From: Candidatus Neomarinimicrobiota bacterium | Lineage (GTDB): Bacteria > Fidelibacterota > UBA2242 > B5-G15 | Direction of reading: 5' to 3' | NCBI GenBank assembly: GCA_017656425.1 | Contig: JACDNV010000001.1 | Location: 186,001 to 250,000 of the forward strand | Length of the DNA stretch: 64,000 nt | Part shown: piece by piece, positions 748 through 60,362 of the stretch | Layout of the letters: every line of letters starts with the position of its first letter | How positions within the stretch are numbered: position 1 is the first letter of the stretch | Position numbers and translations under genes: made by a program | Notes under the pieces: model-generated | Databases searched by the model: none | What the model was told of the DNA's origin: nothing | What the model saw: only the letters and a program-made list of their open reading frames with translations

Positions 748-759
748 ATATATCCTCGT

Positions 760-1770: not shown

Positions 1771-1834
1771 TTCTTATTAACAAATTTCACATAAATATTA
1801 AATATATTAAATAAAACTATTAAATCAAAAATTA

Positions 1835-2881: not shown

Positions 2882-2899
2882 CTTAAATGACTCAGTGAA

Positions 2900-2939
2900 C
2901 AAACGTTTGCAATTTATCCCTTCCGTAATATAAATGCAA
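2900..2939 (-). promoter_or_regulatory. galT operon promoter with LacI-type operator
   Basis: On the minus strand: -35 TTGCAT (2939-2934), a 17-bp spacer, -10 TAAATT (2916-2911), then the perfect palindrome CAAACGTTTG (2909-2900) covering the expected transcription start. The same order, including an identical -10, occurs at 14544-14582. Position and symmetry suit repression by a LacI-family protein. The binding protein is inferred. Confidence 0.72.
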
Positions 2940-3041
2940 TTATTTTATATGTGATTAAACGGTTTTGATCCCGTTTTATCCTATGTATCGATAACCATTT
3001 CCGTCCCGATAAATCTCCCCCCGATTATCCAGTGTGTTATG

Positions 3042-4625: not shown

Positions 4626-4649
4626 AGTATCCTCCTATTCTTTTTATTC

Positions 4650-7517: not shown

Positions 7518-7540
7518 TTTTTCTCCAAAAATTGAACCTA

Positions 7541-9652: not shown

Positions 9653-9836
9653 TTTCCTGGACTCCGTTTGTCTTCTCCTTATTAATCCAGAAAGGTGATG
9701 TAGCAAACCATAGAATAGTGCCTATTATCATTAGATTCTTATTAACTTCAAGAGAAATGATACCTGCAAAAACGAAAAAAGAGGGAATGACCGTTAAAAT
9801 AAGCCCTGCAAATGATAAAATTTTTAATACTAACAT
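9645..9836 (-). CDS. Small two-helix membrane protein coupled to the permease
   Basis: 63 residues with two hydrophobic segments (about residues 3-27 and 33-49) and a short charged tail (NKEKTNGVQENA). It starts 3 bp after the NCS1-type permease stop and overlaps the next gene by 8 bp, so it is almost certainly translated as part of the operon. No family is recognised. The tight placement suggests a small accessory subunit or stabiliser of the permease, an inference from position only. Confidence 0.65.
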   Translation of the reverse strand: MLVLKILSFAGLILTVIPSFFVFAGIISLEVNKNLMIIGTILWFATSPFWINKEKTNGVQENA

Positions 9837-33896: not shown

Positions 33897-33904
33897 ATAT
33901 GGCA

Positions 33905-36130
33905 CTACCTTCTTTTATTAAGATTTCCGAAACTATGATCGTATTGAACATTCCGAATCCATTCATCCGGTATGTAATCATGACCGACTATTTCCTCTAC
34001 CAATTGAAGACTCCTTATGTATAATTCAGAAATCAGATAAATTGGATTTCCCAGAGAAGGAGGTCTATTCAACTCACCGAGTAGAGTATCATAACAGCTA
34101 AACTTAAAATTATCATCATATAAAAATAATTTGTCTTTATGTATTTTTATTGAATCATATGCCTGCGCAATAAATTTAATTTGCTCTGGATCGGTGGTTC
34201 TCATTGAATTTAAACAACGAAGATACCTGAATCTCCAGTAACTTTCGTCAATGTACTTTCGGCAAATAGCAAACTCTCTAAACCAATCAAATCTTGTTTT
34301 TATTTCTTTATAATAATCATCTCTGATAAATGGTTTTGCAATTCTAAGATAATCATACATTTTCTTTATTAATTTTAATGCCTTATTTTTTTCCTGCACA
34401 ACCAGATTAATATTCTCAATAGTAGGTAATAGATACTTGGAAAATTCCGGTAAATAATATCTATTCGTATACATTATTACTACTTCTTTTCTATTAATAC
34501 TGTTCGAAAAATCTGAATTTGTCTCCGTTCCAAATCCTAATGGTGAAAATGTTAAGTTTATTGCCTCTTCGGATAATTTCAATGCTTCAATTATGAATTT
34601 ACCTCCTCTCTCTCCGTAAATATCTGTAGCCCATTTACGCCACAAATCATTTAAGTCTGAATCTATATCCCATGTCAATTCCTTCCACACATACACATTT
34701 ATACTATTTAAAATATCATCAAACAGAGAATAATTTCTTTGACGCGTAGCTCCTGGGTGAATATAAACGCCTCCTTCCGCTGAAACTCTCTTAAGGCTCT
34801 CTTTCATAGTCCACTTTATATAATTCACCATTGAAGTAGGAAAATAAAATCTACCCTGTGTTTGTCCAGTCATTTGATATTCCGCTATCTGAATATGATT
34901 CTTAGCTTTTCCTAAAAGTTCAGAGAATCTTGCATTTGGCTGACAATCAGAATGATAAATTTTAGTCTGGATGATAATTTCCCTCGGGAGCTCCTCAAAA
35001 ACTCTTCCCCACAGCTCATAACCCTCTCCACCAAAATGTCCATACCCAGGAGCATGAACCCACTCTCCTCTCAACCAGTGAGGTACGCCTGAAGACCATG
35101 TTCGGACTATCAACTTTTTCCCCAGAGAAGATAAAACATCATAATAATTTTTTACAGCAACATATAATTCATTTCTAAATTCATTTAACCCATTCTCTTT
35201 ACACCTCTCACACTGGCAGTATAGACCATATGAATCCCAGAAGCTTACGATTAAGCCATCAGCATCAGTTTTCTCTATATATTCTTTGATATAATTTTTA
35301 ACAACAACCCACGTCATAGAATCTGATGGACAGATAGTTCCTTTTTCAAATGACCTTTCTTTTGATTTACCTTCAACAGAAGGATATAATTTTATTGTCG
35401 CCTCATAAAGTGGTAGTGACCACCTTTTAAAATCACACCCATATGAGAAAGGCGCAATATATTCTACATCACACTCATGCAGAATATTTGCAAACTCTTT
35501 ACTCTTTTTTTCTTTTTCTATCGAAGAGTTAACTAAACTATTTTTTACGTCCTCTTCAAGCGAGTTAAAAATCTCTGGCATTGTATTTTTAAAAGTAACA
35601 GTTGCTCCAGGACCACCTACAACCATGTTCACCTTCATATATGCAATAAATTCGGGAACCGACATCCTTCCATGAAAAACTGCTATCCTGGTTTTAAATT
35701 CTGGATTTCTTACAAACTTATCTCTATTAATCCACTTTTCCATATCACCTGCTGCATATAATAAACTCCTCGGTCTTTTTCCACATACAAGAATTCCTCT
35801 ATTTTTTCTTAAGGTAACATAACCATCATATTTCAATTTTTTCTTTATATGTTTTATATATCTCCCATATTGAAAACCATCGTTACTAGTAGTTATTAAT
35901 AAAATATCGCCACGGTGTATATTCCTGTATTCTGGAATACAAAAAATAGAATCAGAATGTATTCCCAATTTTTTAGCAAGTATTTTCGCAGCAAATTTTG
36001 AAGCATCGCTAGTATCGATTAATATAATTCTTTTATAGTTATATCTTTCCACATTATTATAACAGCATATTAATAAACCAAGAAAAACAAAAAGTCCTGC
36101 GGAAAAATTTTTAAAAAATTTTTTCCTCAT
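33905..36130 (-). CDS. Putative alpha-glucuronidase-like (GH67/GH20-fold) lipoprotein
   Basis: 741 residues. The N-terminus GLFVFLGLLICCYNN looks like a lipobox. Residues about 35-135 resemble the small alpha/beta domain that precedes GH67 and GH20 barrels (GDILLITTSNDGFQYGRYI, GILVCGKRPRSLLYAAGD). The middle shows a CQCERCK cluster, LIVRTWSSG, TKIYHSDCQPNARF and YQMTGQTQGRFYFP, as in GH67-like proteins that carry a CxCxxC motif. It probably removes a uronic acid from a side chain. Its stop overlaps the next gene's upstream region at 33905, and the upstream gap to PL11 is 31 bp. Substrate is inferred. Confidence 0.65.
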   Translation of the reverse strand: MRKKFFKNFSAGLFVFLGLLICCYNNVERYNYKRIILIDTSDASKFAAKILAKKLGIHSDSIFCIPEYRNIHRGDILLITTSNDGFQYGRYIKHIKKKLKYDGYVTLRKNRGILVCGKRPRSLLYAAGDMEKWINRDKFVRNPEFKTRIAVFHGRMSVPEFIAYMKVNMVVGGPGATVTFKNTMPEIFNSLEEDVKNSLVNSSIEKEKKSKEFANILHECDVEYIAPFSYGCDFKRWSLPLYEATIKLYPSVEGKSKERSFEKGTICPSDSMTWVVVKNYIKEYIEKTDADGLIVSFWDSYGLYCQCERCKENGLNEFRNELYVAVKNYYDVLSSLGKKLIVRTWSSGVPHWLRGEWVHAPGYGHFGGEGYELWGRVFEELPREIIIQTKIYHSDCQPNARFSELLGKAKNHIQIAEYQMTGQTQGRFYFPTSMVNYIKWTMKESLKRVSAEGGVYIHPGATRQRNYSLFDDILNSINVYVWKELTWDIDSDLNDLWRKWATDIYGERGGKFIIEALKLSEEAINLTFSPLGFGTETNSDFSNSINRKEVVIMYTNRYYLPEFSKYLLPTIENINLVVQEKNKALKLIKKMYDYLRIAKPFIRDDYYKEIKTRFDWFREFAICRKYIDESYWRFRYLRCLNSMRTTDPEQIKFIAQAYDSIKIHKDKLFLYDDNFKFSCYDTLLGELNRPPSLGNPIYLISELYIRSLQLVEEIVGHDYIPDEWIRNVQYDHSFGNLNKRR

Positions 36131-36161: not shown

Positions 36162-38354
36162 CTATCTAATTAAAACAATTTTTTCAGAAACTTTATATAC
36201 TCCATCTCTTAGAACCACGAAATATACTCCCGATGGAACATTTGCGCCAACTTTATCCTTTCCATCCCATCGCAAGGTATATTGACCAGGAGCAAATCTG
36301 CTGTTAGAAAGAGTTATAACCTCTCTTCCATTAATATCATATATTTGCAATTTAATCTTAGATTCTTTCGAAATTACAAAATTTATAAATGTCGAAGAAT
36401 TAAACGGGTTTGGGTAACTTGGCAGAAGTTTATGACCAAGGGGTAAAAACAGATTATTATCTGCCTTTTCATCTATACTGTTCGAAGAGGGATAGACAAT
36501 ATTTGGGAGTGGTGGTTCATTCATTCCTTCGCCCAGGTAAAATCCAGGGTGAGGTGGCTGATTATAACCTACATTTTGAGATGCTACAGCAATCCTGTAA
36601 ACCGGATCATGCATCAGAGTATAGATACTATGCTCTGTAGGTATGGTTGTCGTATATACCCTGAGGGTACTATTATCTCCCTTTCTAAAAATGACCTCTT
36701 CCCTCCAGTCTCCTATTATATCTGCGCTTAAGCAGGGAGTCGCTTTTGTACCATTATTAGATGCACAACCATAAGCGTGGAGTAAGGGTTTGTAGGATGG
36801 ATATTCCTGAGAAACAACTAAATTATCTAGCAATTCCGTCTTTAAATCACCATCCCAATATATAACAAAATTTATAGCACCTGGAGATTTCCCTATATTT
36901 TCACCTTTACATGTAAACAATGGACATCCATTTGACGCCCAGAGCTCAAAACCTCTGTAATCTGGACGTATATCTCCGGCGCATCCCCTCCCTACGTCAG
37001 CATCAATCCTATATTGAAAAATCAAATCCCCGGTTGCTGCATCTCGTAGTGTTACTCCATTGCCACCAGACTCGTGAGGCATGAATATCTCCAATCCAGG
37101 TCTGTCGGGGTCCATATCACTTACATGCAATGCGTCGCCATGACCTAAACCTGTGGAATATAAACCTTCACCATTATCATCAATTACACATGCACCATAT
37201 ACTATCTCATCTTTTCCATCATTATCAACATCTGCTGCTGTCGTCCAGTGTGCTCCCTGACCGATATATTCCACATTCTTAAACTCTGAAATATTTCCAT
37301 TTGCATCCAATTTAATATACGCTTCAAAAATCCACGCCAATTCCAGTTCCCCATTCGAAAAATTCCATGCCGCCACCATATTCTTTACTCCGAAACCTGT
37401 TCTCGGTCCGTAATATCCTCTACAGGTAATCAAACTTGGATGCACTCCATCAAGATAGGCAACTGTCATAAGAAATCTATCACACCTATTGCCATAATCA
37501 TCACCCCAATCCTTAACATTTCCACGGGCTGGTTCATAATCAACGGAGGTGATTGCCTCTCCTGTTTCTCCATCGAAAATTGTCAAATACTCAGGCCCGT
37601 TCAGCACATATCCAGAACTATTCCTGTAATCTGCATCCGGATCCCCAATCACATTCCCCTGTCCATCAACAGCACCATCAGAAGTCCTAACTGCAAGCTC
37701 TGCTTTCCCATCACTATCCAAATCATAAACTATAAACGGTGTGTAATGAGCACCTGAACGTATATTCTTCCCCAGATCAATCCTCCAGAGATGTGTCCCA
37801 TCCATATCATACGCATCAATTATAGTATTTCCAGTGTAACCTCTTTTCGAATTATCTTTGGAATTACTTGGATCCCATTTTAAAACTATTTCATATTCCC
37901 CATCACCATCGAGATCACCTACACTAGCATCATTAGCATTATAGGTATAGCTTACTCCGTCAGGCGTTTTACCACCTTCCGGTATATTCAACGGAATCTC
38001 ATAGTATATTTTATTCCATATTTGAGCAATAACTTCTTCATTCTGCTCAATACCATCTATAACAGTTCTTATTTTATAGACGTTTTGAGTGGTTCCAGTA
38101 GAATCAAAATAATTTGTCTTTTCTAAATTCTTAGCGAGTAACGAACCATCACGATAGAGATTGAATTTTATATTTTGCGGATCAGTACCAAACTTCCTCC
38201 AGCTCAAAAACATATACTCATTTAAATTTTCATCAGTAACTTTAACTGCAATGAATCCCCTATCAAGACACTCCATAATACGAGCTTTTGAGAAAACAAC
38301 GGCACTAAGAACTATTAACACGAATAAAATCATACACACCATCCTTCTCAACAT
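36162..38354 (-). CDS. Rhamnogalacturonan lyase PL11 with type IX sorting domain
   Basis: 730 residues with signal peptide (about 1-23) and a near-perfect AGGAGGTGAT ribosome site. ECLDRGFIAVK, LSWRKFGTDP and the repeated Asp-rich calcium loops of an eight-bladed propeller (GDLDGDGEYEIVLKWDPSN, DLDSDGKAELAVRTSDG, DVDNDGKDEIVYG, SADIIGDWREEVIFR) are those of PL11 enzymes such as YesW. It cuts the rhamnose-galacturonate backbone of RG-I at the cell surface. The last 85 or so residues (PSYPNPFNSSTFINF to the Lys/Arg end) form a type A Por secretion sorting domain. Confidence 0.94.
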   Translation of the reverse strand: MLRRMVCMILFVLIVLSAVVFSKARIMECLDRGFIAVKVTDENLNEYMFLSWRKFGTDPQNIKFNLYRDGSLLAKNLEKTNYFDSTGTTQNVYKIRTVIDGIEQNEEVIAQIWNKIYYEIPLNIPEGGKTPDGVSYTYNANDASVGDLDGDGEYEIVLKWDPSNSKDNSKRGYTGNTIIDAYDMDGTHLWRIDLGKNIRSGAHYTPFIVYDLDSDGKAELAVRTSDGAVDGQGNVIGDPDADYRNSSGYVLNGPEYLTIFDGETGEAITSVDYEPARGNVKDWGDDYGNRCDRFLMTVAYLDGVHPSLITCRGYYGPRTGFGVKNMVAAWNFSNGELELAWIFEAYIKLDANGNISEFKNVEYIGQGAHWTTAADVDNDGKDEIVYGACVIDDNGEGLYSTGLGHGDALHVSDMDPDRPGLEIFMPHESGGNGVTLRDAATGDLIFQYRIDADVGRGCAGDIRPDYRGFELWASNGCPLFTCKGENIGKSPGAINFVIYWDGDLKTELLDNLVVSQEYPSYKPLLHAYGCASNNGTKATPCLSADIIGDWREEVIFRKGDNSTLRVYTTTIPTEHSIYTLMHDPVYRIAVASQNVGYNQPPHPGFYLGEGMNEPPLPNIVYPSSNSIDEKADNNLFLPLGHKLLPSYPNPFNSSTFINFVISKESKIKLQIYDINGREVITLSNSRFAPGQYTLRWDGKDKVGANVPSGVYFVVLRDGVYKVSEKIVLIR

Positions 38355-38383: not shown

Positions 38384-40945
38384 TCACTTTATCAAAACGA
38401 ATTTCCTCATAATCTTTTCTTCCCCATTACTGAGAACATAAATATAAATACCTGAGGATAGACCTGAGGCATTAAGACTTACATTATATGTTCCCGCTGG
38501 TTTTTCTTCATCCACTAACCCTAAAACCTCATGACCCAATAGATCATACACTGTTAGACGTACATAACTTTTATATGGCACCTCATACTTAATTAAGGTA
38601 TAACTATTAAAAGGATTGGGATAATTTTGATACAACCTTAGACCTTTTAAAATAGTTGCATCTTTTTCAGATATTTCATTTAGTTCCAACACTTCTATAG
38701 CATTTATACGCCAAACATGTCCTTCACCTTTATGATGTATAAAAAACAGTTCCAATTGGCCATCATTTACATCAATACTAAATGACGTATCCTGAAAGCT
38801 ACCACCAGGGCTATAAAGACTATCAAGTACTTTTATTCCTTCTGCATAAATATCCATCGGACCATTAGGTGCATTAGATAAATAATCACCTGCTATGACC
38901 CTAATTTTATACGATCCATTACCTACATCGAGAAAAAATCTCATGGATGAGTAAGAAAACACAAAATCCCTTCTAAGATTATCAGGAGATCCTCTATCTC
39001 TTTGGTCTAAACCAATTATATTTTCAAATCCATAACCAAGCCCCGGAGTATATTGAACTGTCTTATCGACCCTTACAAATCCTTCCTCCACTGGACCTGG
39101 TCCAAAATCAATCTTTTTCGGTACATCTTTAGGGGGAATTTTAAATTTAGCAGATATATTTATGGTCCTAGTTATTTTTATGGATAGTGGATTATCTATA
39201 CTTTCGATATCACCACTCCATCTATCGAATACAAAACCTGAATCAGGGATGGCATAGATGCTTACTACCTGCCCTGAATCATAAATTGAAACCAAAGAAT
39301 CTAACATAATCCCGGAGGGATCAAATTCAACTCTTCCCGATCCATCAATATTACATCTCAAAAAATATTGCCCTTCACCTATCGTGGAATCCTCGGAAGT
39401 ATTTGAAAAATCACTTTTACCACAGGTATTATATGAGGCTATACGAAAACTGTACTTTGTATTACACGTCAAATTCGTTATTGAGAAGGATTCCAGATTA
39501 CAAAGAGGGATTACTAATTCAGAATAACTCTGCCAACCATCATCAGAATACTGCAAAATAAATCCTCTCTCGTTATAAGAATTATCATCCCAAGTCAAAT
39601 CTATTCTATCACTTGAGTATGCCTTTGCTGATAAATTACCAGGGATACCCGGTTCTATTGTATCTGGAGGTATCTCTTCAAATGGCTGATTTACAAGACT
39701 ATTCAGGTATTCTTCCAGGTTTGTGTAACCGTCAAAATCATTATCACCATTTCTATCTTCAGGGTTATCCGGATCCAAGCCATTAGCTTTTTCCCATTCA
39801 TCAGGCATACCATCATGATCAGAATCATCAAGTGGCTCGCCACCTTCCAAATCCGGAAAACCACCCACTTCGCTTTGCCTTTTTATAATGTGACCGGTAT
39901 TATTTTTCACATCATTGACCACTCTTTCATCAACAGCATCCCTTAACTTCGAAGAACCAGCATATTGAAGAACCAATTCGTATGCTTCTTCTGCTGTATG
40001 AGTCGTAACTGGTGGAACCGGGAACTCATCATCCACCAATATCGGCGTACCTTTCACACCAAGCGAATTATCCTGAGTAACATCTGGGTAGCCATAGACA
40101 AAATTACCATTGACATAGAGTTCCTTAGTATTATATTCCGAATATACAATTGTATTTCTTTGATCAGGTTTTTCAGATTGCGTAGATGGTCCATATTTAA
40201 AATAGTTGTTTATTATATTCACCTTACCTGTAGGACTGCAATATGTACTCATTTCTCCCCAGTTATAAATCACATTATTTCTATAATCGGTTATATCGTT
40301 TTCATAGGTATAGGCAAATTTTGGATTTCGAGTTTTATTGTGATATATCAGATTATGATGATAACTACTATTTCCACCCCACAGACCACCACATGAATGG
40401 CCCATATAATCAAGTCCTTCGCCTATCATACACCATTGAACTGTAACATTTTCATTTCCATACATTGACGCACATTCATCAGCACCCCAACTTATCGAAC
40501 AGTGATCAATAATTATATTTTTACAATCATTTATATCAAGGGCATCCGATTTTATACTATTTATATCACCCAGTCGAAATCTTAAATATCTAATTATTAT
40601 GTTGTTTCCTTTGATAATCGTTGGGTATCCTCTTATACAAATACCATTACCAGGTGCTGTTTGACCTGCAATAGTAATGTTATTACCAGTAATTTTCAGT
40701 GTAGACTTTAAATCAATATACCCTGAAACCTTAAAGACAATGGTCACATTACTCCTTTTCACCCCCTCTCTCAGAGAACCAGATCCTGAATCATTTAGAT
40801 TAGTTACTTCGTAAACATCACCAAATCTTCCACCGGTAGTATAAGCACCAAATCCTTCTGCGCCCGGAAATGCAGGTATTTGAGAAAATAGAATAACAGA
40901 ACCTATAAGATAAACTGTTATATATACTAATACGCTCCTCATCAT
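38384..40945 (-). CDS. Multidomain pectate lyase PL1 with FN3, carbohydrate-binding and type IX sorting domains
   Basis: 853 residues. Signal peptide (1-22), then a PL1 right-handed beta-helix beginning AFPGAEGFGAYTTGGR with IIIRYLRFRLGD and CSISWGADE (residues about 24-350). An Asp-rich calcium segment (DSDHDGMPDEWEK) follows, then fibronectin III (about 445-530), a repeat with GFVFDRWSGD, a beta-sandwich beginning IDFGPGPVEEGFVRVD like the N-terminal domain of rhamnogalacturonan acetylesterases, and a YPNPFN sorting domain. It likely cuts homogalacturonan next to RG-I at the cell surface. It begins a block that follows a terminator. Confidence 0.9.
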   Translation of the reverse strand: MMRSVLVYITVYLIGSVILFSQIPAFPGAEGFGAYTTGGRFGDVYEVTNLNDSGSGSLREGVKRSNVTIVFKVSGYIDLKSTLKITGNNITIAGQTAPGNGICIRGYPTIIKGNNIIIRYLRFRLGDINSIKSDALDINDCKNIIIDHCSISWGADECASMYGNENVTVQWCMIGEGLDYMGHSCGGLWGGNSSYHHNLIYHNKTRNPKFAYTYENDITDYRNNVIYNWGEMSTYCSPTGKVNIINNYFKYGPSTQSEKPDQRNTIVYSEYNTKELYVNGNFVYGYPDVTQDNSLGVKGTPILVDDEFPVPPVTTHTAEEAYELVLQYAGSSKLRDAVDERVVNDVKNNTGHIIKRQSEVGGFPDLEGGEPLDDSDHDGMPDEWEKANGLDPDNPEDRNGDNDFDGYTNLEEYLNSLVNQPFEEIPPDTIEPGIPGNLSAKAYSSDRIDLTWDDNSYNERGFILQYSDDGWQSYSELVIPLCNLESFSITNLTCNTKYSFRIASYNTCGKSDFSNTSEDSTIGEGQYFLRCNIDGSGRVEFDPSGIMLDSLVSIYDSGQVVSIYAIPDSGFVFDRWSGDIESIDNPLSIKITRTINISAKFKIPPKDVPKKIDFGPGPVEEGFVRVDKTVQYTPGLGYGFENIIGLDQRDRGSPDNLRRDFVFSYSSMRFFLDVGNGSYKIRVIAGDYLSNAPNGPMDIYAEGIKVLDSLYSPGGSFQDTSFSIDVNDGQLELFFIHHKGEGHVWRINAIEVLELNEISEKDATILKGLRLYQNYPNPFNSYTLIKYEVPYKSYVRLTVYDLLGHEVLGLVDEEKPAGTYNVSLNASGLSSGIYIYVLSNGEEKIMRKFVLIK

Positions 40946-41060: not shown

Positions 41061-42065
41061 TTATTTCAATAGAACCATCTTTTTCATCTCGCTAAAATTA
41101 CCAGATTTCAACTCATAGAAGTAAAGCCCGGTAGGCAATTTTCTTCCATCGAATTTAATCATGTGTTCGCCTGCACTTAATTCTCCCTCAATCAGTGTTG
41201 AAACAAGTTGCCCCATCATATTGTAAACCTTTAATGTTGTATATCCCTTTTCCTTGAGTTCAAATTCTATTGTCGTTACCGGGTTGAATGGATTTGGATA
41301 ATTCTGCTCAAGTCTGTATGTAGCTGCTTTTAATTCTCTACCTCTATCTATACTGGTTTTAGGTTTTGTTTCAAAAACTAATATTGGCAACCTTCCTTCG
41401 GGATCCTCTCTTGAAAATATTGAGATATCACCATCCTGATCCTTATGCTCGAGAATCATAAATGTCAACAGACCATTTCCATCAACATTATTAATAAAAT
41501 TATCAAGCGCTGCACTTGTATCAGTATAGAAGTAATCGATTCCATTAACGTATCCGCTATGTTCTGGATCCGGCTGGTGAATTTCAGTACAATCCCTTGG
41601 AACCAGCGCAAAAGTTATCCTCCGGGATTTTGCAGGATCAAAATTCACCCTTGCTAATGGTGGCGGATCCAAATGAATTATACCAGGAGCATTGACAAAG
41701 CATGTTGTTTCTTCATCCCAATTATCCAATGCATCATCAGTTAAAATATAGACAAGGAGCGAACAGTTATTAACACCTTTATACATTGAGGTATACAAAC
41801 CAATCTGCACATTCTCAAGATTATAGCTTTCCTTATAATCGGAAACATCAAATCTAATATAAGGGACTTTACATCTTGTATCCGGGAGATATCTTCCTAA
41901 TAATGCAGTTTCTGTACCGTGTGTACTATCGGGTGAAAATCTCGCTGCCTGATCGTCATTTGAAATATAAGTATCCGCTACTGGCCCTATCATTTCCTGT
42001 GCCTGTAAGAAACAAAAAAGAGTTAATACACTAATAATCAATGTCAATGATAACAACCTTTTCAT
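41061..42065 (-). CDS. DNRLRE/CBM96-like secreted carbohydrate-binding protein with type IX sorting domain
   Basis: 334 residues from ATG 42065 with AGGAGG six bases upstream. After a signal peptide (to about residue 23) comes VADTYISNDDQ, a GRYLPDTRCKVPYIRFDVSDY stretch with the odd LYTSM strand, and NWDEETTCFVNAPG, the usual signature of DNRLRE domains, some of which are classed as CBM96. The last 80 residues (EQNYPNPFNPVTTIEFEL) are a type A sorting domain. It is probably a surface glycan-binding protein that works with the TonB receptor. Last gene before the terminator. Confidence 0.82.
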   Translation of the reverse strand: MKRLLSLTLIISVLTLFCFLQAQEMIGPVADTYISNDDQAARFSPDSTHGTETALLGRYLPDTRCKVPYIRFDVSDYKESYNLENVQIGLYTSMYKGVNNCSLLVYILTDDALDNWDEETTCFVNAPGIIHLDPPPLARVNFDPAKSRRITFALVPRDCTEIHQPDPEHSGYVNGIDYFYTDTSAALDNFINNVDGNGLLTFMILEHKDQDGDISIFSREDPEGRLPILVFETKPKTSIDRGRELKAATYRLEQNYPNPFNPVTTIEFELKEKGYTTLKVYNMMGQLVSTLIEGELSAGEHMIKFDGRKLPTGLYFYELKSGNFSEMKKMVLLK

Positions 42066-42107
42066 CACTTACCTCCTATGTTTTTTCATTTTTAACATAT
42101 AAAATCC

Positions 42108-43169
42108 TTACAACGAAATTTTTATTGAAAACCTATTTATAGTATTAAAAATCTTTAATGGTGTATAGGAATAGGATATTTCCATGGTTCTACCACCAAC
42201 CTGTGGGGAAATACTGAATCCTGCAGAAAATCCCTCTTCATCTTTATTTGTGACATACCCACACATAGCAGAAAACACATTCATATAACTAAATTTTAAG
42301 CCTATATGTAATCTTTCGGTATAATTGTTTGGATGGGTAAATTCAATAGATGCAAATAGGCTTCCTTTTTTAGGATCAATATTAAAAAAATCAAAAAGGT
42401 TCATTCCACATCCTACTGCAAATGTCATTGGCAATTGGGTCGTTATTTCTTCATATTTTATGCTTGAGGCAAAATTCCTGATATACATACCGAATCTGAA
42501 GCTTTTAAAACCTGGATAGAATTTTACTCCCATATCATAGGCAAACACAGACTCACTATTTTTGTGGTCAACATCACTAAGCGTAGTATCACCGTCTACA
42601 ACCTCTATATAGGAAAAACGAGACTGTCCAAGATTTTGTCCTACATATTTAATGGTAGCTCCCATCAAAAATTTAGCTGAAATTTTCCTTGAATAAGAGA
42701 CTCCATATGAGTAAGATGATACATTATTTAATTTCCCAAATTCTCTATATCCTTTAACATCAGCAGGTGAGACTGCCAAGCCAGTCCATACTATTTCCCC
42801 ATAATTAACATTTACAAGATGTAAACCAAGAGCGCCAAAATTACCAAGATTAAACGCAATTGCTGCCGTGGTATATTTTATATCAGCAACATACTGTACA
42901 CCAGAAAGCAACAAGGACATTCTTGAAGTCATCTCCCCTAAACCAGAAGGATTGTAAAATATACTTTCGCACCCGGTCCCAATAGATGTATAAGCTTCTC
43001 CCATTGCAACGGCATTCGGTATTACACCAACCTGTAAGAAGGTCATAGAAGCCTGACCCACTTTTTTCATTCCTACACCCTCAAATTCATACCAATAAGG
43101 GAATACACTATCCAAGAAAAAAATATTAGTTAAAATAATAAATAAAAATACGCTTATTAATTTTTTCAT
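42108..43169 (-). CDS. PorV/PorQ-family outer membrane barrel protein
   Basis: 353 residues, signal peptide 1-24. The segment VGQASMTFLQVGVIPNAVAMGEAYTSIG followed by FYNPSGLGEM is the hallmark of the PorV/PorQ (UPF0164) family, FadL-type barrels that shuttle type IX substrates at the outer membrane. It lies 13 bp after the gene for a sorting-domain protein and in one operon with the TonB receptor, so it may be a dedicated shuttle or a fixed part of the uptake complex. Confidence 0.85.
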   Translation of the reverse strand: MKKLISVFLFIILTNIFFLDSVFPYWYEFEGVGMKKVGQASMTFLQVGVIPNAVAMGEAYTSIGTGCESIFYNPSGLGEMTSRMSLLLSGVQYVADIKYTTAAIAFNLGNFGALGLHLVNVNYGEIVWTGLAVSPADVKGYREFGKLNNVSSYSYGVSYSRKISAKFLMGATIKYVGQNLGQSRFSYIEVVDGDTTLSDVDHKNSESVFAYDMGVKFYPGFKSFRFGMYIRNFASSIKYEEITTQLPMTFAVGCGMNLFDFFNIDPKKGSLFASIEFTHPNNYTERLHIGLKFSYMNVFSAMCGYVTNKDEEGFSAGFSISPQVGGRTMEISYSYTPLKIFNTINRFSIKISL

Positions 43170-43182
43170 AATTAACCCCCTC

Positions 43183-45393
43183 CTATCGAACTACAATCAA
43201 TTTTTGGTATGCTACTTTACCATCAGGTGTTTGAAATACGACTATATATATACCACTTGCTATTGCTTGCTGATTTTCTGTTAACATATCCCATATCTCA
43301 AATCCCGATGAAACTGGATCAGGTTTATGCTCAATTACTTTTACTAAATCCAGATTTTCAGTATATATTCTTATTGTACATTCCTCAGGTAAGTTAAAAA
43401 ACATTATTCTCCTAGGATCATCAAGATTTGGTAGCCCATAGTTATTCCAGAGAGGATCTCTAATATTGTATGGATTTGGTACAATGCGGATATCACTTAA
43501 TTTCTTACCAACTGGACGCTTTGATTCTACAGGATTATAGGTTGTGCTGAATAGTCTTCCTCCCCATATTACCTTACCTCTATTCGCCGGATAAGCGTAG
43601 GGATCATTTTCATCTATTCTTACCCCAGCCTGTACATAATAGTAATAGGTGGCTCCAAAAACTACCGTTGTATCTACCCAGTGATGTTCTTCTGCTTTGT
43701 CCTCAGGACCCGATCTATAAACTTCTTCAAAAAACACTGTATCTCGATATCCTACACTCCGCATTATTCTATACCCTGCGAAATTTGGCAAATTTTCAGC
43801 TTGCTGATTACTCCAGCTTATTTCAACTCCACGACCAGTACCCAGGATGTACTGATTTGTGGGAGGAGGTGCCATAGGTACTTGCCAGTTATGCTCAAAA
43901 TTCCATTTTGCCCTGGATACAGTCTTATGTATCGAGTCTATCACAGTGCTATACCATCTATCTTTTATTTTATCCATCTCTGTTGCATCGATCGGAAACG
44001 CAAAATTAGTTGGGAAATAACCAGTCCTTGGATCAGGCAAATTTGGCGGGTCCTGTAAAGTTCCGTTCAACCATTTCTCGCCGATTTCCTTTGCCTTTTT
44101 TAAACTGAGAGACGCGAAGCCAACGGCATAAACAATATGAATGGTATCACCTGGGTGCCATTTTTCATATGGTCCGATAGACACCCATCTTCTATTCCAA
44201 ATATGGTTTTTATCAAATCCATTCCCAAGGCATGAATAATCAGGATTACCCATTTCATCATTATTCTTTCTGTGATATGTACCAGAGATTCTATCATCAA
44301 CCAATTGATCTTTCCATACATAGCCAGCTATAATACCATAAGATCCTCCTGGTTGTCCCTGTTGATAACCTGGCAAATCTCCCACGGCTTCGTAATGAAC
44401 CCTCTCATGATTATAATAGGCTGTTACTGTTGGCTGTTTAGGATCATCCACGTCAAGTTGAGGATCGCTATACGGTTTCTCTGAAACATGTAAAAATGCT
44501 ATAAATTCCATATCAGGTTGCGATAATCTACCATCCTGGCTATATACGGGATGTGCCATTTGATCTCCTGGTCTCTCGGGATCATCAGCGCTATATTCAT
44601 AAAAAATTCTAAGAGTATCGCCCGGGCGTGAGCCATAATAATGAGCCCAATGATGTGCAGCAGGCCCCTGTCCACTGGGCAATTCTGGATTTCTACCCTG
44701 AGCTCTGAAAATATTAAAAGCTGCATCATTCATTTGCAAATATACAGTATCTAAGGTAACACCAGTTTTATTCACTATTTTATAATCACAAATAACATAA
44801 TTATCATGAAATTGCTGACTCCACGCAAACAGTTTGCGATGAACTTCAATACCCCAGTAATTTCTTGTAGACACACTAATTACTTGATCGCTTGTCCCAA
44901 CCATTTTTGTGGGATCAACAACTGCCCAATGTTCTTTTATTTGTCTATTTTCATTATTAACGTAATTATCTGGTAAGTCCCATCTGATATAATTTGTCAT
45001 TGGCTGAATTACAACCTCAGCAGTATCCCAGCTCGAACCATAACATGATAATGTATAATAAGGCCATACATCCCAGGTGGTATCTGAAACATTATCAACT
45101 GTAGTTACATTGGGTCCATAAAAATTCCTCATAGCAATAGTTGTTGGCCCCGTAGAGTTTCCATAATTATTATTAAAACCTATACAATTGTAATCTGCAG
45201 GAAACCAGCCTGCTGTATAATTAGGAGACTTCTGCCATGTAGGACCGTGATCCCACACTCCAATACCTACCCTATTAACCTTCATTATTGCCAGCTTATC
45301 ATCACCAAAAAGATTTATACCAACAAAAAATGTGGTAGTAAATACAATCACATAGCAGAAAAATCTTTTTTGAGCCTTTAATAGATTTCCCAT
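43183..45393 (-). CDS. Large secreted surface protein with FN3-like region and type IX sorting domain, possible SusD substitute
   Basis: 736 residues, signal-like hydrophobic stretch at about 12-30. No enzyme family is recognised. The N-terminal 480 residues contain GVWDHGPTWQKSPNYTAGW, a beta-rich body and DAAFNIFRAQGRNPE. A fibronectin III-like part follows (VEISWSNQQAENLPNFAGYR), then a C-terminal sorting-type domain (IVPNPYNIRDP to ASGIYIVVFQTPDGKVAYQK). It is 27 bp after the TonB receptor, where SusD sits in Bacteroidetes loci, but it shows no SusD-like TPR helices and no lipobox. I infer it is the surface glycan-capturing partner of the receptor. Confidence 0.75.
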   Translation of the reverse strand: MGNLLKAQKRFFCYVIVFTTTFFVGINLFGDDKLAIMKVNRVGIGVWDHGPTWQKSPNYTAGWFPADYNCIGFNNNYGNSTGPTTIAMRNFYGPNVTTVDNVSDTTWDVWPYYTLSCYGSSWDTAEVVIQPMTNYIRWDLPDNYVNNENRQIKEHWAVVDPTKMVGTSDQVISVSTRNYWGIEVHRKLFAWSQQFHDNYVICDYKIVNKTGVTLDTVYLQMNDAAFNIFRAQGRNPELPSGQGPAAHHWAHYYGSRPGDTLRIFYEYSADDPERPGDQMAHPVYSQDGRLSQPDMEFIAFLHVSEKPYSDPQLDVDDPKQPTVTAYYNHERVHYEAVGDLPGYQQGQPGGSYGIIAGYVWKDQLVDDRISGTYHRKNNDEMGNPDYSCLGNGFDKNHIWNRRWVSIGPYEKWHPGDTIHIVYAVGFASLSLKKAKEIGEKWLNGTLQDPPNLPDPRTGYFPTNFAFPIDATEMDKIKDRWYSTVIDSIHKTVSRAKWNFEHNWQVPMAPPPTNQYILGTGRGVEISWSNQQAENLPNFAGYRIMRSVGYRDTVFFEEVYRSGPEDKAEEHHWVDTTVVFGATYYYYVQAGVRIDENDPYAYPANRGKVIWGGRLFSTTYNPVESKRPVGKKLSDIRIVPNPYNIRDPLWNNYGLPNLDDPRRIMFFNLPEECTIRIYTENLDLVKVIEHKPDPVSSGFEIWDMLTENQQAIASGIYIVVFQTPDGKVAYQKLIVVR

Positions 45394-45420: not shown

Positions 45421-48400
45421 TTAGAAATTAATCTCTAAACCAAACCATATTTGACGAGGATATCCATATAAAAACATCTTATTATCTGGATCGTTTATAT
45501 AAGGTTTATCATCACTTCTTAATTCACCAACCTTATCATTTCCGGGAATATAATAACCAGGATTTTGCTCTCTCAGGTTATCATATATCGGATCATCATA
45601 CATAGGAAGCCTTAAGGATGCAAGATATTTTTCTCTATCTTCCCTATTCCTAAAACACCATCCTTCATTCATCCAGCTATGTTTAATATTAAAAAGGTTT
45701 TGAATATCCGAAAATAGGCTGACTTTAATTCTCCCAAAATTAATTCTTTTTGATATCCTCATATCAAAATTTAGATAATCTGGCCATCTTAAATTATTCG
45801 TATAATTTCTTATGTTAGCAGGATTCCACGTGAAAGTACCTCCTCTTACCCATCTACTTGTTATACCAATCAACCAGCCACCAATCGGATATATGCCCCC
45901 AAATCCGGGACCTATTGTTTCAGGTACATGAAAAGTCACATTACCAGTGACCATTGGTCTCGTTGATGGTCTTATTTCCTCTGCTTCATAATATCCATAT
46001 TGTTCATTCCATACTTCGTCATCAGAAATTACTGATCTTCCCACATATCCATATTTTTCTATCATATATCTGTAATTAAGCCAACCTGTTATATATTTAC
46101 CAACCTGCTTGGTAATGCTTGCCTCAAAACCTTGTATATCTTCATATCTATTATTTGTTCTCACACCATATCTCACTGTTCCGTCTGTCCTTTGATAGGT
46201 TATACTCCCTGGTTCGCCAGAAACATCCTTATAATATGTACTTAGATTAATTAGATACATATCAAGTAGATTATAAGTAATACCCAGCTCATATTGAATT
46301 GTTCTTGGTGGTTCCAGATTTGGATTTCCTATATCTCTTAATCCTACATCTCTAAAGCTCATCATATACAGATACATATCATTATATGCCGGATTTGAGC
46401 GAAAATGACCATAATTGAAATAAAACTTCGATCTTTCAGTAACAGGAAAAGAAATTCCTAATCTTGGGCTTATAGCATAATGATTTTTAGTTTTTTCAAA
46501 TAGGGTACCACCTGTTGTATCATTTATAGTATTCCACCTTCTCCAGATTACGGAGATGCCTGCAAGCTGATCAGCAACCAGCTGAGAAATATTACCTCTT
46601 TCAGTACCTGTACTAAAGGCAGCCACATTGAAAGGATCGCCCGTTGGCCACACTTCATCTCCTGTATTATAATAATCAAACCTTACACCAATAGTAGCAA
46701 CCATACCTTCAATAGTAATCTGGTCTTGCACGTAGGCACCAGCTACCCATGGCTGTCTATGGAAATACAACTCCCTTTCATTTATTACATACATTTTATT
46801 GTTTAAATCGAAATAGTTTACTTCAAAACCTGCTTTGATTAGGTGAGCTAATGTTACCTGACTGGAAAAATCATATCTCAGGCTATATTGGCTTGCATAT
46901 GAATCATCAAAGTAATTCGCTGATTTACCACTAAATCTTCTTCCCAGACCGTATACAGACGATAATCCATTGTCTTCCCAATATTTCGAAGAATCCTCCG
47001 GATCATAAACCAGGTACTTCTGCATACCCCATCTTGGTTCAATCATTCTTCCATAAGGTTTTTCATCTAAGTATATGGGACCAAAATTTATTTTATATGA
47101 TTTGTCTCTTAATTCCCATAGTTTTTCACCCATATAGTATTTTGAGGTTGAATACTGTAATGTCAAATCCCAATAGGTTCTAGAGCTAATCATATGATTT
47201 AATTTTAATCCTGCAACATATATTGTCTGATTTTTTGGATGAAAGAATGTAGGATGCCAGTAGTAAGTTTCTCCTACTCCTCTTAGATCTCCAACATTAT
47301 TTTCGTCCATTAAACCACCACGACCATATAAAGTAGGAGTTGCTAAGGCGATATTTTGTATTTGTGCTACTCCTTTTCTAAGTCGGTACAAGAGAGTCAA
47401 ATTCAGAGTAGTTTTTCTAGTTAAATAGGATTTTAAGGTTAGCATTGTGGTAGACTTCCAATCAGAAGGTCTCTCTTGACATACAGTCGGCTGTATAAAA
47501 TAAGTATTATTTGTCTGATGCGATAAATAAAAAGTCGCATCTCCGAGAAATTTACCAATCAGTGGCACCGGTCCACCAAAACCAAAATCTATATTGTAAT
47601 CGGAGTGCGTACCTTCCTTTTCATGGGCATGCTCCTCAATTGCCTTTTTCTTCTTTTCCCACTCTGGATCCTGTGTTGTCCATTCAGGATATAATTCTTC
47701 GAGCTTATCCCAATCTGGAACTACCATATGATTCCAACATGCCCATAGATATAAATCCATTGGAGTTGCCTCTTTCTGATAGTCAAGATAGAACAATGTA
47801 GCTAATGTTTTCCATCCTGTGAAAGCGTCATGCTGTTGAGCCAAATATTCTGCTTCACCAGTATCACCATTGGTATACATTAACCACCCATTCTTAGTAC
47901 CCTCAAAACCAACTATAGGATCCAAATAAGGCTTCAGGGCGTAATTACCTATATCGTATATCGATTTACCAAATCTTTTCATCCGTGGCAAATTAGCCGA
48001 GATTGACAATCTACCATGATATGCATCTCTATAACCTGTTTTTGTGGTTACATTTATAAGTCCTGATCTAAAATTTCCATATTCTGCACCAAATCCACCA
48101 GTTACAACCGATATTTGTTCAATTGCACTTAATGGTATTATAGGCTCAGCTTTACCCATTCTAAAATCAACAACAAGAAGACCATTTACCATAGAGCCTG
48201 TCTGTTCTGCAGACCCTCCTCTAATCTCCAGATACCTTGCATTAGTTACTCCAGGCAATTTGTCTAAAAAGTTTTCAACCGTACGTACTCCAGATATCTC
48301 CAGGATTTGTTCAGAGGATACCACCTGTTGAGTGACAGACACTTCTTTATGTAGAATATCTCTTTCAGCAGTTACGACAACTTCTTCCCCCTTAATAACT

Positions 48401-48735
48401 TCCTGTTCCATTTCAAAATTGACCGTCGTAATCTGATCGACGGAAACAACAACCCCCTCTTTGGTAATCTTCTTATAACCAATCATCGAAGCCTGCACAG
48501 AGTACACTCCTGGTGGCACATTTAGAATAACATACCTACCATCCTCATCAGTCGCAGCACCAAGATATGTGCCCAGTATGATTATATTAGCTCCAGGCAA
48601 AGGCTCTCCTGTATCCTTCTTTATAACCCTACCTGTAATTTTACCAGTAACAGCAGCATATAACATATCGATACATGATAGACTTACTATAAAAAAAATG
48701 ATAACATTAAAACTAATGATAAGGATTTTTTTCAT
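45421..48735 (-). CDS. TonB-dependent outer membrane receptor, SusC-like
   Basis: 1104 residues. Signal peptide (1-27); carboxypeptidase-regulatory-like domain at about 33-110 (GKITGRVIKKDTGEPLPGAN, GYKKITKEG); plug domain at about 120-235 (SGVRTVENFLDKLPGV, GGFGAEYGNFRSGLINVTTK); then a large barrel ending in a terminal Phe (WFGLEINF), the outer-membrane insertion signal. It should import oligosaccharides from the surface lyases. It is the first gene of an operon with the partner, PorV-like and DNRLRE genes, under a strong promoter with a LacI-type operator. No SusD gene follows. Confidence 0.92.
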   Translation of the reverse strand: MKKILIISFNVIIFFIVSLSCIDMLYAAVTGKITGRVIKKDTGEPLPGANIIILGTYLGAATDEDGRYVILNVPPGVYSVQASMIGYKKITKEGVVVSVDQITTVNFEMEQEVIKGEEVVVTAERDILHKEVSVTQQVVSSEQILEISGVRTVENFLDKLPGVTNARYLEIRGGSAEQTGSMVNGLLVVDFRMGKAEPIIPLSAIEQISVVTGGFGAEYGNFRSGLINVTTKTGYRDAYHGRLSISANLPRMKRFGKSIYDIGNYALKPYLDPIVGFEGTKNGWLMYTNGDTGEAEYLAQQHDAFTGWKTLATLFYLDYQKEATPMDLYLWACWNHMVVPDWDKLEELYPEWTTQDPEWEKKKKAIEEHAHEKEGTHSDYNIDFGFGGPVPLIGKFLGDATFYLSHQTNNTYFIQPTVCQERPSDWKSTTMLTLKSYLTRKTTLNLTLLYRLRKGVAQIQNIALATPTLYGRGGLMDENNVGDLRGVGETYYWHPTFFHPKNQTIYVAGLKLNHMISSRTYWDLTLQYSTSKYYMGEKLWELRDKSYKINFGPIYLDEKPYGRMIEPRWGMQKYLVYDPEDSSKYWEDNGLSSVYGLGRRFSGKSANYFDDSYASQYSLRYDFSSQVTLAHLIKAGFEVNYFDLNNKMYVINERELYFHRQPWVAGAYVQDQITIEGMVATIGVRFDYYNTGDEVWPTGDPFNVAAFSTGTERGNISQLVADQLAGISVIWRRWNTINDTTGGTLFEKTKNHYAISPRLGISFPVTERSKFYFNYGHFRSNPAYNDMYLYMMSFRDVGLRDIGNPNLEPPRTIQYELGITYNLLDMYLINLSTYYKDVSGEPGSITYQRTDGTVRYGVRTNNRYEDIQGFEASITKQVGKYITGWLNYRYMIEKYGYVGRSVISDDEVWNEQYGYYEAEEIRPSTRPMVTGNVTFHVPETIGPGFGGIYPIGGWLIGITSRWVRGGTFTWNPANIRNYTNNLRWPDYLNFDMRISKRINFGRIKVSLFSDIQNLFNIKHSWMNEGWCFRNREDREKYLASLRLPMYDDPIYDNLREQNPGYYIPGNDKVGELRSDDKPYINDPDNKMFLYGYPRQIWFGLEINF

Positions 48736-49122: not shown

Positions 49123-50496
49123 ATGCATCGAAGAGATTTTATTAAAAACATTACAACATCAATCTTATCTATACCGCTTTTTAACCTATTATCATGTGGA
49201 ATTAGGGAAATTATTCATAAACTTCCCAATATTCTAATAATTATCTCTGATGATACCGGCTGGAACGATGTTGGTTTTCATAATCCAGAGGTTATAACCC
49301 CAAATCTTAATAAATTAGCGAAAGAAGGTATTGAACTTACCAATTTTTATGTTCATCCATTATGCTCACCAACCAGAGCTGCTCTTCTTACCGGAATACA
49401 CCCTAGCAGATTCGGAATTCTTGGACCCATAGCTGGTAAAGATAAAACTGCTCTTCCCAGAAATGTCATTAATCTACCCGCTTTTTTAAAAAATATCGGA
49501 TATAATACAGCCCTTATCGGTAAATGGCATTTAGGTCTTTCACTATCTGCAGGACCTAAACAGTATGGTTTTGATTATACTTACGGATACCTCCATGGTC
49601 AGATTGATCCGTATACCCATATGTATAAATTTGGTGACAAAACCTGGCATAGAAATGACAAATTTATTGATGAAAAAGGACATGTAACTGACCTATTAAC
49701 AGAGGATGCTACAAGATATATAGAAGAATCCTCAGGGAAGGGAAAACCGTTTTTCCTTTATCTTGCATATAATCTACCTCATTACCCTCTAAACGAAGAA
49801 AAAAAATGGCTGGACTACTATAATGAAGAGACAAATTATTCCAGAAAGCAATTCCTGTCCGCAATGACTCACCTTGATCATTCTATAGGACAGGTCGTCA
49901 ATTGTATTCAAAAAAACAAATTGCTAGAAGACACTATAATCATATTTTTAAGTGATAATGGTGGGCAAAAAGGCTGGACTCCTTCACCTCTCGAGTACAA
50001 TGGTAGATATAAAGCAGCTGATCGATTAGGTGATAATTCTCCTTACAGAGGATGGAAAGGAGAACTCTATGAAGGAGGCATTAAGGTACCGTCTCTTTTA
50101 TACTGGAAGGGAAAATTTGAAAAAGGGAAAAATAGTCAACTAATAATAGTTGAAGACATTTTCCCAACGGTTGCAGCTATTTTAAATGAAAATATTAATA
50201 ATGAAAAAACAATAGAAGGCATCGATATAACACCATCCTTTAAAGGACATGAGCTACCAGAAAGGACACTTTACTGGAGAACTAAAAGACAAATCGCTGT
50301 AAGAAAAGGTCGCTGGAAATTGATAAAAAATCTCAAACCAAATGAATCAACACCTGAGTACGAATTATTTAATCTGCACGATGACCCTTATGAACAAAAT
50401 AACTTATTTGATAAAGAAAAATCTATTGCAGAGGATTTAATTCTGGAAATGCAACAGCAAATAATCAAAGATCCGCCATATCTAAGGAATTTATAA
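49123..50496 (+). CDS. Sulfatase (S1, formylglycine type), exported
   Basis: 457 residues. The N-terminus has a twin-arginine-like RRDFIK and a possible lipobox LLSCG. Metal ligands in ISDDTGWND, the CSPTRAALLTG motif with Cys81 to be converted to formylglycine, GKWHLG and FLSDNGG are all present, so it should be catalytically complete. Cys-type enzymes need FGE or a radical-SAM maturase; none is seen in the window. It shares the divergent region with the TonB-receptor operon, so it likely removes sulfate from the imported glycan. RG-I is not normally sulfated, which leaves room for a marine or algal substrate. Confidence 0.92.
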   Translation: MHRRDFIKNITTSILSIPLFNLLSCGIREIIHKLPNILIIISDDTGWNDVGFHNPEVITPNLNKLAKEGIELTNFYVHPLCSPTRAALLTGIHPSRFGILGPIAGKDKTALPRNVINLPAFLKNIGYNTALIGKWHLGLSLSAGPKQYGFDYTYGYLHGQIDPYTHMYKFGDKTWHRNDKFIDEKGHVTDLLTEDATRYIEESSGKGKPFFLYLAYNLPHYPLNEEKKWLDYYNEETNYSRKQFLSAMTHLDHSIGQVVNCIQKNKLLEDTIIIFLSDNGGQKGWTPSPLEYNGRYKAADRLGDNSPYRGWKGELYEGGIKVPSLLYWKGKFEKGKNSQLIIVEDIFPTVAAILNENINNEKTIEGIDITPSFKGHELPERTLYWRTKRQIAVRKGRWKLIKNLKPNESTPEYELFNLHDDPYEQNNLFDKEKSIAEDLILEMQQQIIKDPPYLRNL

Positions 50497-58460: not shown

Positions 58461-60362
58461 ATGGCTTCTAGGAGAACTGAAAGAGAAAAGAGCGAGAATA
58501 CTGCTCTCCAAAAGGAGCTAAAAACAATAGACGTATTTTCAATCGCCGCAGGAGCGATGATATCCTCAGGGCTATTTATTTTACCATCTATACTTTATAA
58601 AGACCTTGGTTCTATAATGATTATGTGTTATTTCCTTGCTGGAATCGTATATATTCCATCAATATTTTCAAATATAGAGTTGGCGACCGCTATGCCAAAA
58701 GCTGGAGGAAGTTATTTTTTTATAGAAAGAAGTCTTGGTTCAATATTCGGAACAATTGGAGGTCTTTCAACCTGGCTATCACTGAGCTTTAAAAGTGCTT
58801 TTTCTTTTTTCGGAATTGGAGTATTTATTTCATTCTTGTTTCCTCAAATAGCAAATAATATTAAAATCATTGCTTTAATATCTTGTATTATTCTTACTCT
58901 CATCAATCTTTTTAAGATAAAAATTTCAAGTACTCTTCAAAATGTCTTGGTCTTCTCAATCATTTCTATTTTAACCATTTATTTGGCCATTGGAATAACT
59001 AAGATTAATCCTCAATACCTATTACATTCAAAAAGCTTTTCATTCGGTGCTCTAATATATGGGGTCGAATCTGTATTTATATCATATTTAGGACTTACAA
59101 AAGCAACAAGTATCTCAGAAGAAATTAAAAATCCCACAAAAACAATTAAAAATGGTATGCTATCATCTTTCTTTGTTATATGGGTATTATATACTTTGTC
59201 CATCATAGTAACAGTTGGTGTTCTTCAACCAGGTGAATTTGATAAAACACTTGTTCCTTTATCTACCTCCGCATTAAAAATAATGGGAGTCCCGGGAGAA
59301 GTTCTTCTCACCATTGCTGGTATATTAGCAGTACTAACAACTGGTAACGCTGGCATAATGGCAGCTGCTAGGTTTCCATTAGCTCTTTCAAGAGATAAAT
59401 TATTGCCGAGTTTTTTATCCTATGTCTCGCCAAAAACCCATATACCCACTCTTTCAGTTATCACAACAGGAATCATTATTGCTGTCAGTATTTATTTTCT
59501 TGATATAGAAAGTTTGGTCAAAGTTGCAGGGGCCTTTGTAATTTTAGAGTTCATCTTTGTAAATACTTCACTAATAGTGATGCGAGAAAGTAAAATTTTA
59601 AATTACAAACCATCCTTCGTGTCTCCTCTATATCCATGGTTACAAATTCTCGGTATTATTGCCTATATATTCATCTTATCTCAATTGGGTACAAAAATAA
59701 TTATAGGAATGGCATCCTTTATCGTTATAGCCATTTTATGGCATTTTATATATAAAAAAGAGTTTACAACCAGAAAATCTGCCATCATACATATCATAGA
59801 GAGAATAACCGATAAAGAGATAGCAGACCCATCCTTAACAAAAGAACTAACTGAAATTTTAAAAGAGCGTGATGAAATAATTGAAGACAGATTCGACAAA
59901 TTAATAAAAAATGCAATCATCATTGATATAAAGGAGAGTATTACCTTAGAAGAGTTTTTTAAAATAGCTTCTCAAAAGCTCGGCGATAAACTTGAGGTTG
60001 AGCCTGAATATATTTATCAAAAGTTGCTAAAAAGAGAGAAAGAAACCACAACAGAGATAAGACCTGGATTGGCTGTTCCGCATATTACAATAGAAGGTGA
60101 GAAAAAATTTGATATGCTTATTGCAAGATGTGAAGAGGGGATATTATTTACACGAGATTTGCCCCCTGTATATGCGGTATTCGTTCTAATTGGAACGAGA
60201 GATGAGCGCACTTTTCACCTGAAAGCTCTATCATCTATAGCACAGATTATTCAAAATCCTGACTTCGACAAACACTGGCTGAGAGCCATAAATGAAGAAA
60301 GTCTCAGATATTTAATACTCGCTGCCGATAGAATCAGGGATGTCTATAAATCAGGTAAATAA
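58461..60362 (+). CDS. APC-family amino acid permease fused to a PTS EIIA-2 domain
   Basis: 633 residues with a GGAGA ribosome site. Residues about 20-435 contain about twelve membrane helices of an APC transporter (VFSIAAGAMISSGLFILPS, AKAGGSYFFIERSLG-like, ATSISEEIKNPTKTI). After a polar linker, residues about 490-633 match a fructose/nitrogen-type EIIA domain, with LAVPH carrying His541 as the likely phosphorylation site. A permease whose gating is tied to PTS phosphorylation is an attractive reading but is inference. It ends 19 bp inside the convergent lipoprotein gene. Confidence 0.85.
   Translation: MASRRTEREKSENTALQKELKTIDVFSIAAGAMISSGLFILPSILYKDLGSIMIMCYFLAGIVYIPSIFSNIELATAMPKAGGSYFFIERSLGSIFGTIGGLSTWLSLSFKSAFSFFGIGVFISFLFPQIANNIKIIALISCIILTLINLFKIKISSTLQNVLVFSIISILTIYLAIGITKINPQYLLHSKSFSFGALIYGVESVFISYLGLTKATSISEEIKNPTKTIKNGMLSSFFVIWVLYTLSIIVTVGVLQPGEFDKTLVPLSTSALKIMGVPGEVLLTIAGILAVLTTGNAGIMAAARFPLALSRDKLLPSFLSYVSPKTHIPTLSVITTGIIIAVSIYFLDIESLVKVAGAFVILEFIFVNTSLIVMRESKILNYKPSFVSPLYPWLQILGIIAYIFILSQLGTKIIIGMASFIVIAILWHFIYKKEFTTRKSAIIHIIERITDKEIADPSLTKELTEILKERDEIIEDRFDKLIKNAIIIDIKESITLEEFFKIASQKLGDKLEVEPEYIYQKLLKREKETTTEIRPGLAVPHITIEGEKKFDMLIARCEEGILFTRDLPPVYAVFVLIGTRDERTFHLKALSSIAQIIQNPDFDKHWLRAINEESLRYLILAADRIRDVYKSGK

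Follow-up and report, generated by a model that had tools for sequence, protein, structure and literature searches.

In gut bacteria of the Bacteroidota, SusD is known as the lid of the SusC glycan importers. Surface proteins can also be held by barrels of the outer membrane: the tail of PorZ stays uncleaved on the barrel PorQ, and it has been suggested that cognate PorV-like barrels protect such tails (PMC10202324), while cognate PorP/SprF barrels keep type B substrates at the cell surface (PMC9143113). For B12 in Bacteroides, one paper describes BtuG, a non-SusD surface protein, in a stable complex with the TonB receptor BtuB (PMC10404256). Here we describe a conserved, co-inherited three-gene module in the glycan loci of SusD-poor FCB lineages, which comprises a TonB-dependent receptor (T), a predicted type IX-exported surface protein (X) and an outer-membrane barrel (V).

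The window, i.e., the whole stretch of DNA analysed, covers 64,000 nucleotides (positions 186001-250000 of contig C1) of a 2.8-Mb genome in 50 contigs that is 99.7% complete. The four open reading frames named in the original prediction were all confirmed in place on the minus strand. They encode T (45421-48735, 1104 aa), a receptor with CarboxypepD_reg, Plug and barrel domains that falls outside the SusC/RagA subfamily; X (43183-45393, 736 aa), with a beta-rich body, an FN3-like region and a C-terminal sorting domain; V (42108-43169, 353 aa), a PorV/PorQ-family barrel and the proposed anchor and loader of X; and a CBM96/DNRLRE protein (41061-42068, 335 aa; CBM96 and Por_Secre_tail by family scans) with a standard type IX tail, which is an accessory specific to this locus. 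The same strand continues with a PelZ-like pectate lyase (38384-40945) that carries FN3 and galactose-binding-like domains and a standard type IX tail, a rhamnogalacturonan lyase of family 11 (PL11; 36162-38354) with another standard type IX tail, a DUF4838-like protein (33905-36130; weak match) and a DUF4450 protein with a weak GH116-like region (30297-33905), all assigned by family scans. The spacing of 27 bp between T and X was likewise as predicted, and this gap holds a strong ribosome-binding site, AGGAGG. Given intergenic gaps after X of, in order, 13, 39, 115, 29, 31 and −1 bp, the eight genes probably form a single operon reaching 30297, with the DUF4838-like gene as a member and the DUF4450 gene as the last. 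A promoter and terminator scan gave hits not above shuffled sequence. The divergent sulfatase gene next to T (49123-50496, plus strand; family scan) is context only, and a fusion of an amino-acid permease with a PTS EIIA type 2 domain was noted elsewhere in the window (58461-60362).

The domain set of T in the Pfam scan, CarboxypepD_reg, Plug and TonB barrel, is common to other receptors and thus not decisive for SusC/RagA. On the SusC/RagA model TIGR04056, T scored 54 bits against a cut-off of 368, with a match covering residues 32-236 alone, and six other T proteins scored 58-76 bits. The canonical SusC of the same genome, on contig C19, was the positive control and scored 768 bits on TIGR04056 and 62.8 bits on the SusC signature TIGR04057; the latter was absent among the T matches listed, at E ≤ 1e-10 in one scan and E ≤ 0.1 in another. 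The TIGR04056 score, with its same-genome control, ruled out the SusC label for T, which by falling below the cut-off is taken to be a CarboxypepD_reg TonB receptor outside SusC/RagA. The earlier term ‘SusC-like receptor’ therefore stands in a broad sense but not in the sense of SusC itself. Sequence searches of T and V against solved structures gave no match.

X had no Pfam match, and hence none to the SusD families PF07980 and PF14322. The sole match to a solved structure by sequence was that of the X family profile to FN3 domains (3mpc, E = 1.7e-4), which supports, at the family level, the FN3-like region originally read from the sequence. The AlphaFold model of window X is beta-rich and moderately confident (pLDDT 75.6, pTM 0.78, 63-sequence alignment), and the model of a core relative from a Calditrichaeota MAG (locus L072) is also beta-rich (pLDDT 89.8, pTM 0.86). 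SusD was absent from the best 50 PDB fold matches of each model. Matches to the X body were weak, with a TM-score of at most 0.25; those other than FN3 were largely to sugar-active enzymes, with a likeness in the beta-sandwich (cellobiose, cellodextrin and laminaribiose phosphorylases, dextran dextrinase, a GH116 beta-glucosidase and an arabinanase), and a viral fold library yielded mostly FN3 and tail proteins. A pattern search found a lipobox in none of 76 X proteins, and the N-terminus of window X, in which a hydrophobic stretch is visible by eye and residues 2-27 form a helix in the AlphaFold model, is without a lipobox cysteine. The beta-rich models, the fold search, the lipobox pattern and the family scans together ruled out SusD as the identity of X. 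Structure prediction of the 43183-45393 product had been proposed as a check on the absence of SusD from the set, and that absence is upheld. T is no SusC and X is no SusD.

The likeness to SusC-SusD systems lies in the arrangement: a CarboxypepD_reg TonB channel with the gene of a surface protein at once after it, lyases and glycosidases in the locus, and many copies per genome, one per substrate. However, T fails the SusC/RagA model, X is unlike SusD in both sequence and fold and is not a lipoprotein, and the set includes a barrel of the PorV family. The only SusD found in the genome adjoins the canonical SusC on the other contig (C19; L059, positions 4995-9740), and the other loci of this genome that were read contained no close SusD relative. 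The genome's one SusD thus pairs with its own SusC, in keeping with the expectation that none elsewhere would be tied to this receptor. Across the phylum, 11 of 61 sampled genomes had a SusD match and 50 had none, while all 61 had an X match (E ≤ 0.001), some possibly to the tail only. X also matched at E ≤ 1e-30 in 58 of 248 sampled genomes of the phylum of Stygiobacter.

V scored 140.8 bits on NF033709 (PorV_fam; cut-off 90) and fell below the equivalog cut-offs of both PorQ (57.9 of 220 bits) and PorV (48.9 of 250 bits). By these scores, V is classed as a paralogue inside the PorV/PorQ family that is neither PorV nor PorQ proper. T-X-V or T-V loci account for 12 of the 13 above-cut-off PorV/PorQ-family genes of this genome, and this, along with the separate tail subtype of X, supports the dedicated PorV-like partner that had been proposed.

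X carries its own type IX tail subtype, distinct from the standard tail. The X-type sorting domain of the window, placed by tail profiles and trees at approximately 43183-43480 on the minus strand (FxNLPxxCTIRIYT...IASGIYIV...KLIVVR), is nearest to that of PorZ and unlike the standard type A tail. Matches of the C-terminus of window X were confined to the PorZ tail (E = 0.002) and, as a weak one, TIGR04183 (E = 0.03; 14.3 bits against a cut-off of 23), and among 63 X relatives, 39 match the PorZ model and 14 the generic type A tail model (E ≤ 0.01). The best PDB match of the X-tail profile is the PorZ C-terminus (5m11, residues 671-758), with a marginal E-value of 0.0074. Below the TIGR04183 cut-off and yet related, the X tail is best regarded as a homologous but divergent type. 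A maximum likelihood tree of 33 C-terminal domains of this genome (11 X tails and 22 tails from neighbouring proteins) placed all 11 X tails on one side of a branch (bootstrap 100, SH-aLRT 99), against 22 neighbour tails that include those of same-operon lyases and of three proteins directly after receptors without V. The X tail motif was present in 69 of 76 X proteins from other genomes versus 0 of 32 neighbouring tails, and a wider tree of 101 tails needed two label changes. As the X tails are homologous along with their genes, the distinct tail may simply mirror gene descent.

Of the type IX machinery, SprA and PorU are present in the genome. On contig C7 (142252-147332; L175, positions 1-3143), a second PorU-like protein, which carries a C-terminal sorting domain, is directly followed by a PorV-family barrel that scores below the cut-off. 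On contig C6, each of three further receptors has directly after it a protein whose tail is of the standard type A, and no V (L060, positions 266-5923; L061, 1283-6102; L062, 1044-6006), possibly another SusD-free receptor arrangement.

PorZ is a type IX protein whose tail is the nearest to that of X and is held by a PorV/PorQ-family barrel; however, PorZ-PorQ is a housekeeping pair for the attachment of cargo to LPS, whereas X and V are multicopy and lie beside receptors and sugar enzymes. Type B substrates share the clustering of the substrate gene with its own dedicated FadL-like barrel as a surface anchor (PMC9143113), but differ in tail type, in having a PorP/SprF rather than a PorV/PorQ barrel and in forming a unit without a receptor gene. 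BtuG is a surface lipoprotein for B12, unlike X, which is predicted to be type IX-exported, has no lipobox and lies in glycan loci.

Searches of this genome with each of the three proteins, followed by inspection of the loci, identified 11 T-X-V sets that are in order and on one strand (in one, at a contig end, T is partial) and a rearranged twelfth in which X is upstream of T-V. Other genomes were covered by a contig scan with a four-paralogue X alignment as query and mechanical ORFs as gene calls, which returned 76 loci. Their labels were Neomarinimicrobiota, KSB1, Calditrichota, Ignavibacteria/Melioribacteraceae, WOR-3/Stahlbacteria and others. As this search began from X only, T and V lie outside its ascertainment. 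Among the 69 complete X genes preceded by a gene on the same strand, 66 have T directly upstream, at a median gap of about 28 bp, and of the 74 followed by a same-strand gene, 61 have V within two genes downstream. Fifteen X genes had no V at +1 or +2; in ten of these, which mostly form the second unit of a tandem array, V lies upstream in the same locus, and the remaining 5 of the 76 had no V in view. Tandem T-X units that seemingly share one V were observed, for example, at L094, L096, L105 and L108. A survey of FCB genomes had been suggested with the original prediction, and these counts, which show wide recurrence, bear out its expectation that the set would recur. Only the core of three genes is conserved, so the four-gene set did not hold up as a unit, and the DNRLRE protein was rejected as a fourth core part, similar small CBM96-type proteins occurring in only some sets (C6, L068).

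An extra gene lies between X and V in 21 loci and often encodes a smaller, lipoprotein-like protein, and 43 loci have a gene of 380-490 aa right after V, mostly with a lipoprotein-like N-terminus. An IPT/TIG domain was present in 4 of 4 scanned post-V genes (three from other genomes and one from this genome's C5 locus); such lipoprotein-like genes of ∼400 aa after V are seen, for example, at L102 (12663-13880), L072 (12778-14019) and L050 (4391-5596). Among ten sets of this genome, pairwise distances of T, V, the X tail and the X body are correlated between genes (rho 0.42-0.72; p 0.0002-0.003 by permutation), with rho for T and X of 0.58 for the body and 0.72 for the tail, indicating that T, X and V duplicate and diverge together.

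The strict definition of a polysaccharide utilization locus calls for a susC/susD pair, which is absent here. Under the wide definition, a TonB receptor together with enzymes for one glycan, the locus qualifies, with PL11, PelZ-like and CBM96 proteins in the operon and GH51, GH106 and GH2 in the window. The latter belong to a large plant-cell-wall region (window positions 3042-27018) that encodes a GH51-type arabinofuranosidase, a GH106 rhamnosidase, GH2 and GH31 enzymes, an aldolase-dehydrogenase fusion of the rhamnulose-phosphate type and an FGGY sugar kinase. From the pectin/rhamnogalacturonan lyases of the operon and the sugar enzymes of the window, the predicted substrate of this set is pectin, most likely rhamnogalacturonan I. 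Other sets of the genome have other flanks: GH28 and a PelZ-like lyase with CBM96 (C6), GH13 and a TIG lipoprotein (C5), GH5, GH16, CBM6 and CBM9 (C4), GH2, GH43 and GH5 (C15), GH31 and a galactokinase (C1b), nucleoside hydrolases (C2a), and an ADP-ribosylglycohydrolase, a sugar/ureide permease and a ribokinase-like gene (C2b; the last two named in part from sequence only). No sugar enzyme adjoins set C1a. In other genomes, where flanks were read for X loci alone, they included GHL10, sodium:solute symporters, LacI regulators, periplasmic sugar-binding proteins, GH92, GH20 and CBM9. As annotated, different enzymes per set are the pattern of substrate-specific uptake systems.

We consider it about an even chance (roughly 0.5) that type IX secretion exports X to the surface, where V holds it and it partners T, probably as a lid that captures glycans. 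T would be the TonB-dependent outer-membrane channel of a SusD-free nutrient-uptake module. Sec would take X into the periplasm and the type IX translocon would carry it on to the surface, where its C-terminal domain would remain uncleaved and bound to V, as PorZ is on PorQ and type B substrates are on PorP/SprF, so that V would anchor X in the membrane beside T. X could then capture oligosaccharides freed by the operon lyases, here from pectin and most likely from rhamnogalacturonan I, and pass them to T, probably acting as its lid or gate. Tail retention on V, contact between T and X, glycan binding by X and lid movement are steps that we infer, and the capture and lid roles are suggested by genomic context and weak structural resemblance. 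The PorZ likeness of the tail, at E = 0.0074, is weak and could reflect ancestry without shared function. Points against this reading are the tandem T-X units that share one V, the X genes with no V in view, the lack of a sugar enzyme beside set C1a, the low TM-scores of the fold matches and the moderate confidence of the window X model. More tentatively, and at somewhat less than even odds, T-X-V may be a second, independent lidded glycan importer, a three-part complex in the outer membrane built from a non-SusC TonB receptor, a type IX non-lipoprotein lid and a dedicated PorV-family barrel that anchors the uncleaved tail, and serving as the main importer in mostly SusD-less FCB lineages.

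X could instead be a surface protein, exported by type IX and either glycan-binding or structural, that shares its regulation with T and is anchored by V but neither acts as a lid nor touches T; T would then import alone, like the carbohydrate TonB receptors of proteobacteria. The FN3-like domain and a body without clear lid precedent are consistent with this, nearby lipoproteins in related loci could be further surface binders, and T-X contact is a step that we infer. We nevertheless think it rather unlikely, since T is immediately upstream of X in nearly all loci (66 of 69) and the two diverge together more tightly than a loose functional link requires.

It is improbable that V is an extra PorV that helps to export all the type IX enzymes of the locus, X being one cargo among them, which PorU would process and attach as it does the enzymes. 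Several type IX enzymes besides X do occur in the loci, and PorV in general shuttles type A substrates (PMC10202324), but the enzyme tails are standard throughout and the separate tail is found in X only. Moreover, V is kept with T-X in set C1a, where no type IX enzyme adjoins, and the standard-tail receptor-enzyme pairs L060-L062 have no V. A surface signalling or adhesion system in place of an importer seems very improbable: FN3-like and beta-sandwich parts such as those of X are typical of surface and adhesive proteins, yet the twelve sets of this genome adjoin different degradation enzymes, some adjoin a sugar permease, sugar kinases or a nucleoside hydrolase, and symporters, periplasmic sugar-binding proteins and LacI regulators flank sets elsewhere, as expected of uptake of separate substrates.

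The literature search found no paper joining PorV, TonB receptors and Marinimicrobia, and none joining type IX secretion, Calditrichota and SusD. The Caldithrix genome paper does not mention the Sus or type IX terms searched, and the Melioribacter paper describes a SusCDE operon, with no mention of a T-X-V set in the passages searched. The combination was not found in the literature searched. The central idea of the original prediction is partly supported and holds in a modified version, in which the receptor is not a SusC, the core comprises three genes, and V likely anchors X as well as loading it.

For annotation, receptors of the T type should not carry the name SusC, and the X tail subtype is largely missed by current curated type IX models. 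The module offers a testable role for the expanded PorV/PorQ family, as membrane anchor of a receptor partner. It also provides a three-gene candidate for polysaccharide uptake in FCB lineages without SusD, with a predicted substrate for several of its copies.
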